Part shown: piece after piece, positions 20,854-52,221 of the stretch | How positions within the stretch are numbered: the stretch's first letter is position 1 | Layout: every line of letters starts with the position of its first letter | DNA from: Actinobacteria bacterium IMCC26103 | GTDB lineage: Bacteria; Actinomycetota; Actinomycetes; Nanopelagicales; Nanopelagicaceae | Assembly (NCBI GenBank): GCA_002284875.1 | Contig: CP015604.1 | Location: 930,001-994,000 of the forward strand | DNA: 64,000 bases | Reading direction: 5' to 3' | Program-made: the position numbers and the translations under genes | Notes under the pieces: generated by a model | The model's database searches: none | Seen by the model: only the letters and a program-made list of their open reading frames with translations | Told to the model about the DNA's origin: nothing

Positions 20854-23013
20854 ATGGCCAATGACATACTCGTTGCGCCGCTGGTTTCTGCGTTAAGAGA
20901 GAATCATCCGACCAGTCGCTTCGCCGATGTAGAACGTGCATATGAGATTGCCAAAGTTGCCCATACCGGTCAGCTGCGCAAATCCGGCGAAGATTACATT
21001 ACGCACCCAGTCGCAGTCTCTTTAATATTGGCTGAACTTGGTTTAAATGACACAACGATAATCGCATCTCTGTTGCACGATACTGTTGAAGATACGCCTT
21101 ACTCACTAGCGCAATTGCGTAACGATTTTGGGGATGAGATCGCCAATTTAGTCGATGGCGTCACGAAGCTAGATAAATTAACTTACGGTCCAACGGCGGA
21201 GGCAGAGACAGTTCGCAAGATGGTTGTTGCGATGTCTCGCGATATCCGCGTGCTGGTTATCAAATTAGCCGATCGTCTACATAATGCTCGTACCTGGAAA
21301 TATGTCTCAACCGAAAGCGCTGAACGCAAGGCCCGTGAAACTTTAGATATCTATGCACCGCTGGCCCATCGCCTTGGAATGAACGCCATCAAATGGGAGC
21401 TAGAAGATCTCTCCTTTGAAGTATTAGAACCAAAGAAGTTCGAGGAAATTTCTCGCTTAGTTGCCGAGCGATCACCATCACGCGATGCGCTGACGAAAGA
21501 GGTAATTGACGCGGTCCAAAGCGATTTAACTCAGGATTCAATCACTGCGACGGTAACCGGACGCAAGAAGCACTTCTTTAGCGTCTATCAAAAGATGGTA
21601 GTTCGTGGCCGTGATTTCAATGATATTTATGACCTAGTCGGTATCCGAGTTCTAGTTAATGATGTTCGCGATTGCTACGCCGTACTCGGCGCCATCCATG
21701 CGCGTTGGTCGCCAGTTCCGGGAAGATTTAAGGATTACATCGCAATGCCGAAATTCAATCTTTATCAATCGCTGCATACGACAGTGATTGGTCCCAACGG
21801 CAAGGCCATTGAAATTCAAATTAGAACCTTCGATATGCATTCACGTGCAGAATTCGGTATCGCCGCACACTGGAAATACAAGCAGGGAAGTGAATCTAAC
21901 TCTTCATCTCCCGAAATGCTTTGGCTGCGTCAATTGCACGAATGGCAGAAGGAGACAGAAGATCCGTCTGAATTTTTGGAGGCGCTGCGCTTTGATTTAG
22001 GAAGCCCTGAAGTCTTCGTCTTCACACCAAAGGGCAGCGTTATCGCACTGCCAGGTGGATCAACGCCGGTCGACTTCGCTTATTCGGTGCATACCGATGT
22101 TGGCAGTCGCTGCGCGGGTGCAAAGGTAAATGGCCGGTTAGTTCCCTTGGATTCTCGCTTAGTAAATGGTGATGTGGTTGAAATTGTTACCAATAAGAGC
22201 GAAAACGCCGGGCCATCGCGGGATTGGCTCAACTTCGTTAAATCACCACGTGCGCGCTCAAAGATTAAGGCGCACTTCAGTAAAGAGCGTCGCGAAGAAG
22301 CCATCGATGCCGGGCGCGAATCTATAGCTCGACAGATGCGCAAAGCGGGATTGCCGCTGCAGAAAATTTTTGCTGGGCATTCACTTTTGGAACTGGCACA
22401 TGATCTGCGTTACCCGGATATTTCTGCGCTCTATAGCGCAGTGGGAGATGGCCATGTTTCAGCGGCATCGATCATTGAAAAATTAGTGCATGCTCTAGGT
22501 ACTGAAGATTCACACCCCGAACCGACTATGGAAAATATCCCAACGGGCTCTCACGTGGTTCGACGTTCTAGCAGTGCGATTGAAGTTGAAGGCGTAGGGG
22601 ATGTCTTAGTAAAGCTGGCTAGATGCTGTACGCCAGTACCTGGGGATTCAATTATTGGTTTTATTACCAAAGGCTCCGGTATTTCTGTGCATCGAGAAGA
22701 TTGCATCAATGCCGCCGATTTGCAACAAAATCAAGGCGAGCGTATTGCTAATGTGCGATGGCTGGAAGGGGCGGGTAGCGTCTTTTTGGTAAATATCCAG
22801 GTTGAGGCTCTGGATCGCCCGCGACTATTAGCAGATGTAACACGGACTTTGTCAGAGCAGCAGGTAAATATTCTTAGCGCAGCTGTTAATACTTCAAAGG
22901 ATCGGACAGCTATCTCAAAATTCACCTTTGAAATGGCAGATGCCACGCATTTAGATTCAGTTTTAGCCGCCGTTCGCGCCGTTGAAGGCGTGTACGACGT
23001 TTATCGAAATTAG
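20854..23013 (+). CDS. rel: Bifunctional (p)ppGpp synthetase/hydrolase Rel
   Basis: The 719-residue protein has an intact HD hydrolase domain (His75-Asp76 in SLLHDTVEDT), a synthetase domain with YQSLHTTV near 304-311, then TGS, helical, zinc-finger-like (CCTPVPGD) and C-terminal ACT domains. It is therefore a long-form RelA/SpoT homologue able to make and degrade (p)ppGpp in response to starvation on the ribosome. In mycobacteria the order is secD-secF-apt-rel; apt is absent here. Its stop overlaps the convergent DUF349 gene by four bases. Confidence 0.97.
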   Translation: MANDILVAPLVSALRENHPTSRFADVERAYEIAKVAHTGQLRKSGEDYITHPVAVSLILAELGLNDTTIIASLLHDTVEDTPYSLAQLRNDFGDEIANLVDGVTKLDKLTYGPTAEAETVRKMVVAMSRDIRVLVIKLADRLHNARTWKYVSTESAERKARETLDIYAPLAHRLGMNAIKWELEDLSFEVLEPKKFEEISRLVAERSPSRDALTKEVIDAVQSDLTQDSITATVTGRKKHFFSVYQKMVVRGRDFNDIYDLVGIRVLVNDVRDCYAVLGAIHARWSPVPGRFKDYIAMPKFNLYQSLHTTVIGPNGKAIEIQIRTFDMHSRAEFGIAAHWKYKQGSESNSSSPEMLWLRQLHEWQKETEDPSEFLEALRFDLGSPEVFVFTPKGSVIALPGGSTPVDFAYSVHTDVGSRCAGAKVNGRLVPLDSRLVNGDVVEIVTNKSENAGPSRDWLNFVKSPRARSKIKAHFSKERREEAIDAGRESIARQMRKAGLPLQKIFAGHSLLELAHDLRYPDISALYSAVGDGHVSAASIIEKLVHALGTEDSHPEPTMENIPTGSHVVRRSSSAIEVEGVGDVLVKLARCCTPVPGDSIIGFITKGSGISVHREDCINAADLQQNQGERIANVRWLEGAGSVFLVNIQVEALDRPRLLADVTRTLSEQQVNILSAAVNTSKDRTAISKFTFEMADATHLDSVLAAVRAVEGVYDVYRN

Positions 23014-46988: not shown

Positions 46989-47923
46989 GCAACTTCGATT
47001 TCTCTACAACTTTAGGAAACGCCTTCTTTAATACGCCAATCTTTACCGCTAGTGGGTGTGCTAGTTCAGGAAAAGAGTTATCCCAATTTTTTGCGCTAAG
47101 TGAAATAGGCGCAGTAGTTACAAAGTCGGTGATGAATAAGCCGCGCTATGGCCGCCCAACGCCACGTATGGCAGAAACGCCATCTGGAATGCTCAATTCC
47201 ATTGGTCTACAAGGCCCCGGAATAGATGCCTTTCTAGCTAAAGATATTCCATGGCTCGTTGAACAAAAATCTCGAGTCATCGTTTCAATCGCAGGTGAGA
47301 CTGTTGAAGAGTATGCAACCTTGGCTCGCAAGGTTAGATCAGTTGCCGGTATTAGCGCCCTAGAAGTGAATATCTCATGCCCAAATGTAGAAAATCGGGG
47401 CTTGGTTTTTGCCTGTGATCCGGAAGCATCACGTCGGGTAGTAGATGGCGTGCGCAGAACAATTGGCGGTGAGATTCCGATCATCGCCAAACTCTCACCT
47501 GATGTAACTAATTTGCCAGCGATTGCCCAAGGCGTCGTAGATGCTGGCGCAGATGCATTAGCTCTGATAAATACCGTTTTAGGCATGGTCATCAATTTAG
47601 ATTCAATGCGTCCACATTTAGGTGGCAAGACAGGTGGTTTATCTGGGCCAGCAATTCGACCAGTTGCAGTGCGAGCTATTTATCAAGTGCATGCAGCGAT
47701 GCCACAAGTTCCAATTTTAGGAATGGGCGGAGTTTCATCTGGCCGAGATGCGCTAGAACTTATTTTAGCTGGCGCATCTGGAGTAAGCGTTGGTACCGCT
47801 AGTTTTGGAAATCCGCACGCAGTAATTGAAATTCAGAGAGAGCTGCAAGAGCTCTTAATTGCAAAGGGTTTTCCTTCTCTAAAATCTGCAGTTGGATATG
47901 CCCATCGTGAGGAGAGCCAATGA
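46985..47923 (+). CDS. pyrD: Dihydroorotate dehydrogenase, class 1B catalytic subunit
   Basis: The 312-residue FMN TIM barrel has the class 1 catalytic cysteine Cys132 in VNISCPN, NTVLGM and the glycine-rich phosphate site ILGMGGVSSGRDALE. With PyrK it forms the NAD-linked class 1B enzyme, cytosolic and not quinone-dependent. The ATG overlaps the pyrK stop (ATGA). Confidence 0.96.
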   Translation: MSNFDFSTTLGNAFFNTPIFTASGCASSGKELSQFFALSEIGAVVTKSVMNKPRYGRPTPRMAETPSGMLNSIGLQGPGIDAFLAKDIPWLVEQKSRVIVSIAGETVEEYATLARKVRSVAGISALEVNISCPNVENRGLVFACDPEASRRVVDGVRRTIGGEIPIIAKLSPDVTNLPAIAQGVVDAGADALALINTVLGMVINLDSMRPHLGGKTGGLSGPAIRPVAVRAIYQVHAAMPQVPILGMGGVSSGRDALELILAGASGVSVGTASFGNPHAVIEIQRELQELLIAKGFPSLKSAVGYAHREESQ

Positions 47924-48630
47924 AAGCCCCGATTATCTTGGCGGTAGATACTTCAGATTTTGAGACCGCGATCGCTTGGATTAAAGCGACGGAAAATTCG
48001 GTCAGCGTTTATAAGTTGGGGCTTGAGTTCTACTTAAATTTTGGCGCCGCAGGTGTTGCGCAAGTTATGAAACGTACTGGCGCAGATATCTTTTTAGATC
48101 TAAAACTCCACGATATTCCACATACAGTCGCGGGAGCCGCCAAGGCGATCGAAGAACTTAAACCACGTTTTCTTACGGTACATTCCAGTGGGGGACGAGC
48201 CATGGTCGCAGCCGCTGCACAAGCAGTGCCAGATATTTCCATTACCGCAGTTACGATCCTTACCTCACTTTCAGAATCTGATTTATTTGAAATTGGCTAT
48301 GCCAGCCCCGCATTAGAGAGCGCGGTTGCGCTTGCGAAATTAGCGGTGGCTGCAGGTGCAAAGGCGTTGGTTTGTTCACCTCTTGAAACAGCGGCTATTC
48401 GCAGCGCCGTTGGTCCAGAGCCAATCATTATTACGCCAGGAGTCAGGCCGATATCTGAGCAAGGAAATGACGATCAGGTACGCACTATGACTCCGGCCGA
48501 TGCAATCGCTGCAGGTGCAAACTATGTTGTGATTGGCCGTCCTATCACCAAGGCATGGGCTGGTGGAGCCGAAGCTATGACGGAGAAAGCGCGCGCCATA
48601 GGCGATGAAATTCTCGAAGCACTTGCGTAG
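47920..48630 (+). CDS. pyrF: Orotidine 5'-phosphate decarboxylase
   Basis: The 236-residue enzyme has the catalytic DxKxxD motif in DIFLDLKLHDIPHT and the phosphate-binding TPGVRP and VIGRPI segments. It makes UMP and ends the operon. Its TAG stop (48628-48630) is also the start of a candidate -10 box for the next gene. Confidence 0.97.
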   Translation: MKAPIILAVDTSDFETAIAWIKATENSVSVYKLGLEFYLNFGAAGVAQVMKRTGADIFLDLKLHDIPHTVAGAAKAIEELKPRFLTVHSSGGRAMVAAAAQAVPDISITAVTILTSLSESDLFEIGYASPALESAVALAKLAVAAGAKALVCSPLETAAIRSAVGPEPIIITPGVRPISEQGNDDQVRTMTPADAIAAGANYVVIGRPITKAWAGGAEAMTEKARAIGDEILEALA

Positions 48631-48639: not shown

Positions 48640-49518
48640 ATGCCGATTCCACCAAAGTTAACTGCGCAACAGCGAGCGGCGGCACTAGCCAAATCAACAG
48701 CCTCGCGTCAAGTACGTGCAGCAGTCAAAGCGCGCGTCAAATTGGGAGAGCTTTCATTATCTGCCGTCTTTGATCTGGCGCAAAACGATGAAGCTATAGC
48801 CAAGATGCGAGTTGCCGAACTTCTAGAATCTTTCGCTGGTGTTGGAAAGATTCGTGCGCTTGCAATGTTGGAGCGTTTGCAGATTTCACAGACGCGACGA
48901 ATCCAAGGCTTGGGTGTTGCACAGCGCCAAAATCTCTTAAAAGAATTTCCCGATCGGGTAGCGGCTGCCCAACGCGGCAAGCTAATTGTTCTCTCTGGGC
49001 CCGGTGGTGTCGGAAAGAGCACGGTCGCCAAAGCTTTACGCGAGACTGGAGAATTCTGGGTTAGCGTTTCGGCAACAACCAGAATCGCGCGCCATAATGA
49101 AGTAGATGGTGTCGACTATTTCTTCTATAGCGATGAAGAATTTGATAGCGCGGTAAAGTCAGCGCTCTTTCTGGAATGGGCAGAGTTTGCAGGAAATCGT
49201 TACGGGACTCCACGCAAACCTGTAGAAGATGCGTTGCGTGATGGGAAGAGCGTTCTTTTAGAGATTGAGATTGCTGGAGCTAAGCAGGTAAAAGAGAGCG
49301 CACCTGAGGCGATCCTTATCTTTCTCCAACCTCCATCATGGGAAGAGTTGGTCTCTCGATTAGAAGGTCGCGGTACTGATTCGCCTGAACGTCGGGCGGC
49401 GCGGTTAGCTCTAGCGCAAGAAGAACTCGCTCAGGTGGGAATCTTCGACCATTCTCTAGTAAATGAGCGAGTAGAAGAGGTGGTCGCAAGCCTGATAGGA
49501 TTACTAAATAATCGGTAG
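48640..49518 (+). CDS. gmk: Fusion of actinobacterial integration host factor (mIHF) and guanylate kinase
   Basis: The 292-residue protein joins two proteins that are separate neighbours in mycobacteria and Streptomyces. Residues 1 to about 105 match mIHF/s[16 protein letters not shown], a basic [10 protein letters not shown] region, the helix-two-turn-helix around [17 protein letters not shown], and [16 protein letters not shown]. Residues about 112-292 are a full guanylate kinase with P-loop [16 protein letters not shown], the GMP-binding VDGVDYFF and the [12 protein letters not shown] segment. The reading frame has no stop and no plausible internal ATG or GTG at the junction. The kinase makes GDP from GMP; the mIHF part would bind DNA. 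Downstream rpoZ and coaBC keep the usual order. Confidence 0.92.
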
Positions 49519-49556: not shown

Positions 49557-49805
49557 ATGGACGGAATCACTAATCCACCAATCGATGAACTTCTCGATAA
49601 GAGCGGTTCTAAGTACAGCTTGGTTCTCTATGCTGCAAAGCGCGCTCGTCAGATCAATGCATATTATTCACAACTCGGTGAAGGCCTATTGGAGTACGTG
49701 GGCCCGCTAGTTGAGACACACGTTCACGAGAAGCCACTTTCGATCGCGCTTCGTGAGATCAATGAAGGTCTCTTAACGATCGAAAATCTCGAACCAACTG
49801 CTTAA
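49557..49805 (+). CDS. rpoZ: RNA polymerase omega subunit
   Basis: The 82-residue protein has the omega signature [18 protein letters not shown] and a C-terminal [10 protein letters not shown] segment. It helps assemble RNA polymerase and in some bacteria mediates ppGpp binding. A strong AGGAGG site lies six bases before the ATG, in contrast to the mostly leaderless neighbours. Confidence 0.96.
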
Positions 49806-49829: not shown

Positions 49830-51026
49830 ATGGCCAAAGTTCGAGAAGTAATTCTCGGGGTTGGCGGCGGCATTGCCGCTTATAAATCTTGTGATCTGCT
49901 GCGCCGGCTACAAGAGCGTGGATATCAAGTCACCGTTGTTCCGACTCCTTCAAGTCTTAATTTCGTAGGCGCAGCAACATGGGAAGCCCTCTCTGGTAGA
50001 GCTGTTACAACCCAGGTCTGGGAACGCGTTGATGAAGTCAGACATATCTCTTTAGCAAATACCGCAGATGCTTTGATCATCGCCCCAGCGACTGCAGATT
50101 TAATTGCGCGAATTGCAGCAGGTAGAGCTGATGATCTACTGACAAATTTGGTTCTGGCTATCGATGTACCGATTTTGATTGTGCCAGCGATGCATCCCCA
50201 AATGTGGAACGATCCAGCAACTCAATCTAATGTGGCGACGCTTCAGTCACGGGGTTTTTCGGTTATGGAACCTGCGATCGGTCGTTTAACCGGAAGCGAT
50301 ATTGGACAGGGAAGATTTCCCGAGACAAATGAGATCATCACTAAATTTGAAGAGGTAACCGAGATTGAGAAGGATTACTTTGGTAAGCGAGTATTAATTA
50401 CTGCAGGCGGTACACGTGAGGCGATAGATCCGGTGCGCTATATCGGCAATCGCTCAAGCGGTAGACAAGGCGCAGCCGTTGCACGTGCTGCACGCGATCG
50501 TGGCGCACAGGTAAAGATGATCTTTGCAAATGCGCAGTTATCACCCGATGAGATAAACGATCTATCTGGAATTGAAATCGTCAGCGTTGAGACTGCAACC
50601 GAGATGTTTACCGCTCTGGAGGAAGCCTTTCCTAAGAGTGATTTACTCGTAATGAGTGCGGCGGTTGCAGATGCTAGGCCTTCGCAATATTCAGAAGGCA
50701 AGATTAAAAAGGGAGAGTTGCGTGACATTGCCCTAGTTGAGAATCCAGATCTTCTGAAATCAATCGCAAAGCTGCGAACCAAGCAGATAGTTGTGGCCTT
50801 TGCTGCAGAGACCAATAACGATTTAGCGGCTGCTCAAGCAAAAATGGAGGCGAAGGGCGCTAATATTCTCTATCTAAACAATGTATCAAATGGTGCGATC
50901 TTCGGATCCTTAGATACAGAAGGCTTTATCATCACGAGCAATGGCGCTCCTATTCCAGTTCCACTGACCAGTAAAGACACGCTTGCCGAGCTATTACTCG
51001 ATCAAGCGCTAAACCAGTTAGGTTAA
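49830..51026 (+). CDS. coaBC: Bifunctional phosphopantothenoylcysteine decarboxylase/synthetase
   Basis: The 398-residue protein combines CoaC (flavoprotein; [20 protein letters not shown] at the start and [11 protein letters not shown] near 112-122) and CoaB ([22 protein letters not shown] read across residues 190-211, plus the KIKKGEL motif). It makes 4'-phosphopantetheine in coenzyme A synthesis. Gene order rpoZ-coaBC-metK-priA is the actinobacterial standard. Confidence 0.96.
51019..51024 (+). promoter_or_regulatory. Candidate -10 box for leaderless metK
   Basis: TAGGTT fits TANNNT and ends six bases before the metK ATG at 51031. It lies in the last codons of coaBC. Confidence 0.35.
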
Positions 51027-51030
51027 TCCA

Positions 51031-52221
51031 ATGTCGAAACGATTATTTACCTCCGAATCAGTAACTGAAGGCCATCCAGATAAGATCGCAGATCAAATCT
51101 CAGATGCAATTTTAGATTCGTTACTGTCACAGGATCCATCTAGTCGCGTTGCGGTCGAGACTCTCATCACCACTGGACAAGTACACGTTGCTGGTGAAGT
51201 TACGACTAATGGGTATGCCGACGTTATGGGAATTGTTCGCGATACCGTTATTGGAATAGGTTACGATTCATCGGTTAAGGGCTTTGATGGCAATAGCTGT
51301 GGAGTTTCTATCTCGATCGGACAGCAATCTCAAGATATTGCTCAGGGCGTAGATGATGCATATGAAAATCGCGTGGCTTCATCTGTCGATCCGTTGGATT
51401 TACAGGGCGCAGGAGATCAGGGCTTGATGTTTGGTTACGCCTGCGATGATACAAAAGAGTTGATGCCGCTTCCGATTTGGTTAGCTCACGAACTTGCCCA
51501 ACAACTTTCTGCCGTTCGCAAATCAGGTGCTTTGCCTTACCTGCGTCCAGATGGCAAGACCCAAGTAACTATTGAATACGATGGCGATAAGGCAGTTGCA
51601 TTAGATACGGTTGTGATCTCGAGCCAACACGCTGAAGAAGTAGATGTTGTTAAGAAGTTAACTCCAGAGATTATTGAACATGTCATCGAACCAGTTCTGG
51701 CCAAGATTGATCTGCCTCGCAAAGATATGCGAACACTTATCAATCCAACGGGGCGCTTTGTGATCGGTGGACCTATGGGAGATGCCGGTTTAACGGGGCG
51801 AAAGATTATTGTCGATACATATGGCGGAATGGCCCGCCACGGTGGTGGAGCATTCTCGGGTAAAGATCCATCTAAGGTTGATCGTTCGGCTGCCTATGCG
51901 ATGCGCTGGGTTGCTAAGAACGTAGTTGCCGCAGGTCTTGCAAGACGTTGCGAGGTTCAAGTTGCCTATGCGATCGGTAAGGCGCAGCCAGTTGGCGTCT
52001 TCGTTGAAACTTTTGGCACAGAAACCGTTCCAGTGCAAAAGATTCAAGATGCGGTAACAACTGTATTTGACCTTCGCCCAGCTGCGATCATCCGCGATCT
52101 AAATCTATTACGTCCAATTTATTCAAAGACTGCTGCCTATGGCCACTTCGGTCGCGAACTTCCTAACTTCACTTGGGAGTCAACATCGCGAGTGGATCAA
52201 CTTCGCGCAGCCGTTAAATAA
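51031..52221 (+). CDS. metK: S-adenosylmethionine synthetase
   Basis: The 396-residue enzyme makes SAM from methionine and ATP. It has the N-terminal [20 protein letters not shown] block (read at 9-28), [12 protein letters not shown], the [20 protein letters not shown] loop and GHFGRE near the end. It starts four bases after coaBC. Confidence 0.98.

Follow-up and report, generated by a model that had tools for sequence, protein, structure and literature searches.

The window, a stretch of DNA of 64,000 nucleotides, carries a genuine in-frame fusion of the gene for the nucleoid protein mIHF to the gene for guanylate kinase (Gmk). The fusion is not peculiar to one genome, since the same architecture was found across the family of the source organism and again in a second family. 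In both families, the IHF half evolves approximately two times faster, relative to housekeeping genes, when it is fused to the kinase.

The fused mihF-gmk gene (positions 48640 to 49518 of the window, plus strand) starts with an ATG and comprises 292 codons plus the stop, according to the open reading frame listing and to its translation, which contains no internal stops. The mIHF/sIHF domain occupies residues 1 to 103 (48640 to 48948, plus strand), with an S13-like H2TH part at residues 34 to 103. It is followed by a linker of residues 104 to 112 (48949 to 48975, plus strand), which holds no in-frame ATG, GTG, or TTG, and by the guanylate kinase domain, identified by both profile and structure matches at residues 113 to 289 (48976 to 49506, plus strand). 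All the neighbouring genes considered lie on the same plus strand. The upstream gene (47920 to 48630), which ends 9 bases before the fusion ATG, is taken to be pyrF. Downstream lies an 82-amino-acid open reading frame preceded by AGGAGG (49557 to 49805), presumably rpoZ (omega subunit) given the operon order, and then two open reading frames (49830 to 52221) that we take to be coaBC and metK; the latter two served as rate yardsticks.

Profile searches assigned both parts of the protein to known families. Pfam placed H2TH_5 at residues 34 to 103 and Guanylate_kin at residues 113 to 289, and the NCBIfam models actino_IHF (NF041260; residues 5 to 103) and guanyl_kin (TIGR03263; residues 113 to 289) scored 112.5 and 209.7 bits, respectively, against curated cut-offs of 60 and 160.45 bits. 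The sequence-only reading of the window, which had proposed that a complete mIHF and a complete Gmk share one frame, was thus borne out by a single 292-codon open reading frame with both domains above the curated cut-offs. Rather than being a stand-alone protein of about 105 residues, the size criterion for an actinobacterial IHF, the IHF of the window sits in a 292-codon frame with the kinase. NF041260 is typed in NCBIfam as an equivalog_domain, so longer proteins appear to be allowed by the model, and its curators may know of such proteins. The one reverse-strand frame translated across the fusion gene showed many stops, and another reverse frame contains a mechanical 107-amino-acid open reading frame with a TTG start (48708 to 49031).

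The source genome consists of a single contig of 1,456,516 bases and is 99.99% complete. The named records nearest to the fusion were an Actinobacteria metagenome-assembled genome (MAG; 84% identity) and a Candidatus Planktophila MAG (82%). All 251 genomes searched in the order belong to one family (f1), which would correspond to Candidatus Nanopelagicaceae (order Nanopelagicales, home of Planktophila); matches to the fusion were obtained in 240 of them and no match in the remaining 11. Full-length, stop-free relatives with 81 to 88% identity were present in at least 13 other genomes of the window's genus, and across the window's 14-genome clade the spacing between the domains was unchanged and free of stops. 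Judging from representatives of the 16 f1 genera sampled, 10 carry the fusion (g1, g2, g3, g4, g6, g9, g10, g12, g14, and g16) and 6 carry separate genes (g5, g7, g8, g11, g13, and g15). Among the 74 f1 loci fetched first, a non-random choice, 61 were fused and 13 were split; within the fused genera, some genomes gave two or only weak matches (e.g., G201, G241, G158, G179, and G210). Nothing beyond the unusual architecture speaks for a sequencing or assembly error that joined two genes, and the recurrence of that architecture in many independent assemblies of f1 and in the second family leaves such an error a negligible probability. A search of related genomes for the same fusion had been put forward as a check in the earlier reading, and its outcome in f1 and in the second family rules out the case of an error.

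In that second family (f36), a single stop-free frame covers both halves in 137 of 150 genomes and fails to do so in 11, and the other 2 showed no match. In one of the 11 (G661), the locus is interrupted by contig ends, and another fragment of it continues from the IHF half into the kinase. Family f36 would correspond to Microbacteriaceae, given the names of the fused loci. Thus, in a collection of 80 named loci, 30 were fused (13 of the Nanopelagicaceae type and 17 others) and 50 consisted of separate neighbouring genes. All but 1 of the 17 carry a Microbacteriaceae name or one of 10 genus names, namely, Microbacterium, Curtobacterium, Subtercola, Agreia, Pseudoclavibacter, Leucobacter, Planctomonas, Frigoribacterium, Naasia, and Glaciihabitans. 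Seven of these genera stand among the 40 Microbacteriaceae taxa shown, and we take the other three to be Microbacteriaceae as well. The 50 split loci came mainly from Streptomyces, and also from Cellulomonas, Rothia, Arthrobacter, and others. In agreement with the earlier statement that mihF and gmk are adjacent separate genes in Mycobacterium and Streptomyces, all Streptomyces loci were split, as was the locus taken to be from Mycobacterium (L078). A third group (f34) contributed two fused genomes of genus g102 among the matches listed, with linkers of 18 and 25 residues; the linker is in general short, and its length varies between families. Two metagenome records with the titles Bifidobacterium breve (L174) and Candidatus Fonsibacter lacus (L211) carry a Planktophila-like fused gene and an actinobacterial mihF-gmk pair, and they look mislabelled.

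Many genomes across the phylum have mihF and gmk close together. In a survey of 246 genomes, the only stop-free spanning genes among the matches listed (to about 3e-42) were those of the window's genome and of one f36 genome, and at least 36 rows had both halves in a common frame interrupted by exactly one stop. Split neighbouring genes, which often share a frame and are separated by a single stop, would therefore represent the ancestral state.

To place the fusion on a phylogeny, a tree of six neighbouring genes (taken to be carB, pyrK, pyrD, pyrF, coaBC, and metK; 41 taxa, 2,660 columns, SH-like supports) was used together with a three-gene tree. In the six-gene tree, the split genera g5, g13, g8, and g15 are basal in f1, outside the fused crown, with a support of 1.00. 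The two remaining split genera, g7 and g11, nest inside the fused crown in both trees. In the six-gene tree they group together (support, 0.67) and then with the fused genus g10 (0.82), and their nesting in the fused group has supports of 0.96 and 0.87; in the three-gene tree, g10 groups with g7 (0.56), g11 falls outside them (0.82), and the crown has a support of 0.79. The simplest reading is a single fusion in f1 followed by one or two later splits, in which case some relatives (g7 and g11) would have lost the join again; several independent fusions within f1, in place of one fusion plus splits, could also account for the distribution. The f36 fusion is separate from that of f1 on the tree. 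By parsimony, the fusion arose at least twice, and probably three times. In the basal split genera of f1, mIHF has a slow rate like that of never-fused genes (see below), which speaks against a single older fusion.

An AlphaFold model of the fusion protein (mean pLDDT, 91.4; pTM, 0.62), whose confidence dips to a mean of 68 across residues 101 to 110, points to two rigid domains joined by a flexible linker. The IHF half of the model (residues 16 to 104) matched the sIHF-DNA structure 6bek with a Z score of 16.6 and a root mean square deviation (rmsd) of 0.9 over 89 residues, and the sIHF-DNA structure 4itq with a Z score of 16.1 and an rmsd of 1.2 over 90 residues. The kinase half matched the M. 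tuberculosis Gmk structures 1z8f, 1s4q, and 1znw (Z score, 24.8; rmsd, 2.5). The 50 best Foldseek matches were guanylate kinases only, and the sIHF match came from a second structure comparison.

Conservation of individual residues was checked in 62 fused proteins (46 from Nanopelagicaceae f1 and 16 from f36). In the IHF half, R23, R26, G69, G90, G92, and Q95 were invariant. The other basic sites considered were nearly always basic as well: R12 was present in 60 proteins (L in the other two), K30 in 61 (R in one), R72 in 58 (K in four), R86 in 46 (K in 16), and R87 in 60 (K in two). Two hairpin residues were less well kept, G67 in 52 and K70 in 35 of the 62 proteins. These basic residues and hairpin glycines would contact DNA. 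In the kinase, 13 of 14 checked positions (K126, S144, T147, R148, R151, Y160, E179, Y188, T190, E208, R240, R244, and R255) were invariant in the 62 proteins, and the 14th, residue 127, was S in 47 and G in 15 of them; these positions presumably include the P-loop lysine and the GMP site.

The mean net charge of the IHF half was +7.7 in the window's clade and from +6 to +10 in the other groups. Rough dN/dS values for the 14 genes of that clade, calculated from 41 to 56 usable pairs of 91 and with dS saturated (approximately 2), were 0.064 for mIHF, 0.166 for the linker, and 0.049 for Gmk. The idea that the mIHF half is dead baggage in the window's clade is not favoured, given this purifying selection, the retention of the basic residues, and the charge of +7.7.

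To compare the rates of evolution of the two halves, branch lengths were summed on a fixed three-gene topology and expressed relative to the mean of carB, coaBC, and metK. A total of 69 of 81 regions entered the test (68 of them in the five groups compared), the other 12 being dropped for a missing gene. The relative rate of mIHF was 0.83 for stand-alone genes of the class and 0.99 for the basal split genera of f1 (six members), and it rose to 2.16 in fused f1 and 1.73 in fused f36; the genera inferred to have split again (five taxa) showed a value of 1.93. The corresponding rates of Gmk were 1.36 (stand-alone), 1.29 (basal split), 1.36 (fused f1), 0.90 (fused f36), and 1.30 (re-split). In 60 site bootstraps with the yardstick lengths fixed, fused mIHF was faster than stand-alone mIHF and than basal split mIHF every time, in both families. 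Similarly, the median pairwise mIHF/Gmk ratio was 0.64 for stand-alone genes, 0.90 for basal split genes, and 1.24 for re-split genes, compared to 1.49 and 1.76 for fused f1 and 2.20 for fused f36. A change in the kinase as the cause of the shift in f1 was ruled out, Gmk having a rate of 1.36 when fused versus 1.29 to 1.36 when split, and the slower Gmk of f36 (0.90) leaves the ratio of mIHF to the yardsticks unaffected. A drop in abundance or a narrower role on DNA would explain the faster IHF half.

The number of products made from the fused gene depends on the junction. The earlier reading had described this as lacking an in-frame stop, ATG, or GTG, which proved correct for the window: of the start-type codons ATG, GTG, and TTG, the 35 codons preceding the P-loop hold a single one, the TTG of codon 91 in the mIHF motif. 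Internal starts were then sought in 61 f1 and 43 f36 genes, the stretch tested for ATG running from codon -30 to codon -3 before the GP of the P-loop. No in-frame ATG occurs in this stretch in 13 of the 14 genes of the window's clade or in 40 of the 43 f36 genes, and 5 of the 61 f1 genes lack ATG, GTG, and TTG alike there. No conserved internal kinase start ahead of the kinase fold was found in these 61 f1 and 43 f36 genes. The product would thus be one polypeptide of about 32 kDa, a size estimated from its length.

A continuous frame might nonetheless yield two proteins, either from an internal non-ATG start such as the TTG at codon 91 or by cleavage of the linker, and some features of the junctions agree with this. 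Besides the TTG of the window gene, an ATG is present in the junction of 20 of the 61 f1 genes, and 10 of the 61 have an ATG or a GTG together with a Shine-Dalgarno-like site. Nor is a missing site of this type decisive: of 60 f1 genes, only 1 has such a site at the mihF start itself, which makes Shine-Dalgarno sites uninformative for internal starts. However, the junction ATGs of f1 are scattered in position, and the commonest start-type position is common to only 17 of the 61 genes. The start-type codon shared by 31 of the 43 f36 genes is at position -3, which belongs to the kinase's first strand. Moreover, the 35 codons that precede the P-loop contain no start-type codon at all in 2 of the 61 f1 genes, the window's TTG is present in just 4 of the 14 genes of its clade (its own counted), and the linker of that clade is free of stops and constant in length. 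Two separate proteins are thus very unlikely.

As for copy number, a search of the source genome with the actino_IHF profile gave one match, the fused gene, and the fusion protein used as a query against its own genome likewise gave one match, its kinase half being the only match to this kinase. The second stand-alone mihF for which the earlier reading had suggested looking is therefore absent from the source genome by profile search; the genome of Corynebacterium glutamicum, which served as a control for the profile, does have the IHF. A hidden second copy was also rejected for the fused genomes among 63 chosen genomes, none of which had a full-length one. Of these 63 genomes, 55 had an actino_IHF match and 8 did not (six of f36 and two of f34), none had two full-length matches, and the sole second match was partial (20.5 bits, in G523). 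Matches only at or below the curated cut-off were obtained in G585, G533, and G548, besides the f36 genome G531, whose only hit was partial (20.1 bits) and elsewhere in the genome.

The IHF half has been lost from some relatives. In f36 genomes of genera g135, g138, and g204, mIHF is missing, and the preceding gene, read by eye as pyrF, runs directly up to gmk. The mIHF half is gone at loci L118, L119, L121, and L122, which belong to the f36 genomes G531, G528, G611, and G597, respectively, and no actinobacterial IHF match was obtained in the last three (G597 being only 78% complete). At locus L120 (f36 genome G588, genus g195), a low-complexity N-terminus of Gmk of approximately 95 residues stands in the place of mIHF. 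In f34, the two g102 genomes are fused with a long linker, and the two g66 genomes have no detectable mIHF (G312, G422, G429, and G460 in all). The essentiality that the earlier reading had attributed to mIHF therefore holds in mycobacteria, one study calling mIHF essential in M. tuberculosis (PMC6155035), but not everywhere, as six of the f36 genomes checked have no actinobacterial IHF and a seventh (G531) has just the weak partial hit.

Other components of the same genomes were surveyed in 16 of them. HU-type matches were found in all 16, and Lsr2 was found in none of seven f1, one of six f36, none of one f34, and two of two other genomes; the f36 genome with Lsr2 is G588, unlike the other five checked. 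With Lsr2 in none and HU-type proteins in all of the seven f1 genomes (G000 and six more), the main nucleoid proteins there may be HU and the fused IHF. The genome's only match to a RelA/SpoT domain lies in the window at 21559 to 21891 (G000:C1:951559-951891), within an open frame of 721 codons, which indicates that (p)ppGpp signalling is probably present.

Taken together, the data are quite probably explained by a genuine bifunctional fusion, made as one polypeptide, that is the cell's sole actinobacterial IHF, arose by stop loss, and has both halves working. The stop codon between adjacent, co-directional, and often in-frame genes would have been lost in the ancestor of the Nanopelagicaceae crown, and the joined gene inherited since; the tree and the junctions support the loss of the stop, and we infer that a single mutation was enough. 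From the conserved residues and the fold, the kinase half would convert GMP to GDP as usual and the mIHF half would still bind DNA. The fusion would couple the amount of a nucleoid protein that is normally very abundant to the amount of a metabolic enzyme, and the short flexible linker would carry the kinase to the nucleoid. The doubled rate of mIHF after fusion would fit a reduced role or abundance. The faster evolution could also be a decay of DNA binding, K70 being kept in just 35 of 62 proteins. The join itself seems dispensable, since g7 and g11 are split inside the fused crown, and so does the DNA-binding half in those f36 genomes that keep Gmk without mIHF. A dedicated signalling role is possible, but the data can be explained without one.

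What the join is good for, if anything, separates the remaining readings. We see an even chance that the stop was lost by chance or through streamlining, with the halves unchanged and no regulatory meaning beyond the shared dose; this overlaps with the bifunctional fusion just described and denies only a benefit of the join. It agrees with the ancestral adjacency of the genes, which often share a frame interrupted by one stop, with the apparent re-splits in g7 and g11, with the loss of mIHF from some f36 genomes, and with a linker that is short and variable between families. It sits less well with the retention of the fusion in 137 of 150 f36 genomes, a family that is not strongly streamlined (127 of the 150 genomes are of at least 2 Mb), and with at least two origins by parsimony, each followed by the same change in mIHF rate. 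A regulatory coupling, in which GMP, GDP, or (p)ppGpp on the kinase alters DNA binding or DNA alters the kinase, is unlikely. In its favour, the two genes lie near each other in many genomes of the phylum, and RelA/SpoT was present in all 16 genomes checked, that of the window included, which makes a (p)ppGpp link possible on the basis of gene content. In addition, (p)ppGpp reportedly inhibits GMK in multiple phyla, although not in Proteobacteria (PMC6783271). However, a pTM of 0.62 with low confidence in the linker does not indicate a fixed interface between the domains, and apparent re-splitting and mIHF loss do occur. More specifically, and still less probably, the protein could be a metabolic sensor on the nucleoid, with dimerisation of the kinase converting a monomeric DNA binder into a bivalent, DNA-bridging one whose grip is set by the guanine-nucleotide or (p)ppGpp state. 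If this were true, Microbacteriaceae and freshwater Nanopelagicaceae would have independently evolved the same nucleotide-controlled chromatin protein.

Whichever reading holds, knock-down, drug targeting, or proteomics directed at either protein in Microbacteriaceae or Nanopelagicaceae touches both. Repeated fusion, apparent splitting, and loss of the IHF half together offer a natural experiment that bears on the reason for the proximity of gmk to a nucleoid-protein gene in Actinomycetota and on a possible tie between nucleoid structure and guanine nucleotides. From the doubled rate of the IHF half, one would expect a lower abundance or a changed role on DNA, which can be tested.

No published description of an mIHF-Gmk fusion was found among the open-licence papers listed, which is weak evidence for novelty. 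The words "guanylate kinase" and "fusion" are absent from the main text of PMC6155035, as are "guanylate kinase," "gmk," and "fused" from that of PMC4255298, which discusses sIHF. Both domains are well known, and the origin of the fusion is likely ordinary; it is the joining of a nucleoid protein to a nucleotide kinase, each of them essential in mycobacteria, in two large groups that is unusual. In Bacillus, RemA binds DNA and adjoins gmk, and we take it to represent a protein family other than mIHF. The gmk-rpoZ neighbourhood of Firmicutes with remA resembles the mihF-gmk locus; according to one report, gmk or remA is preceded by a CD25890-type gene in all the Firmicutes genomes examined, and these genes are in turn upstream of rpoZ (PMC8041843).

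In M. tuberculosis, guanylate kinase is called essential in one article (PMC5686395), and deletion of mihF is described in another as having required that gmk and rpoZ be supplied because of polar effects (PMC6155035). The kinase half resembles M. tuberculosis Gmk, Rv1389 (PDB 1s4q/1znw), in having a complete TIGR03263 domain and a Z score of 24.8, and it differs from bacterial Gmk in carrying an N-terminal DNA-binding domain where the latter has a short free N-terminus. Similarly, the IHF half shares with mIHF (Rv1388 of M. tuberculosis) and sIHF (SCO1480 of S. coelicolor) the fold, the basic residues, the hairpin GxG, the RRxxGLG motif, and the adjacency to gmk. However, while mIHF and sIHF are stand-alone proteins, of about 105 residues according to PMC6155035 and of 107 amino acids for SCO1480 according to PMC4255298, here the same domain forms the N-terminal third of a kinase.
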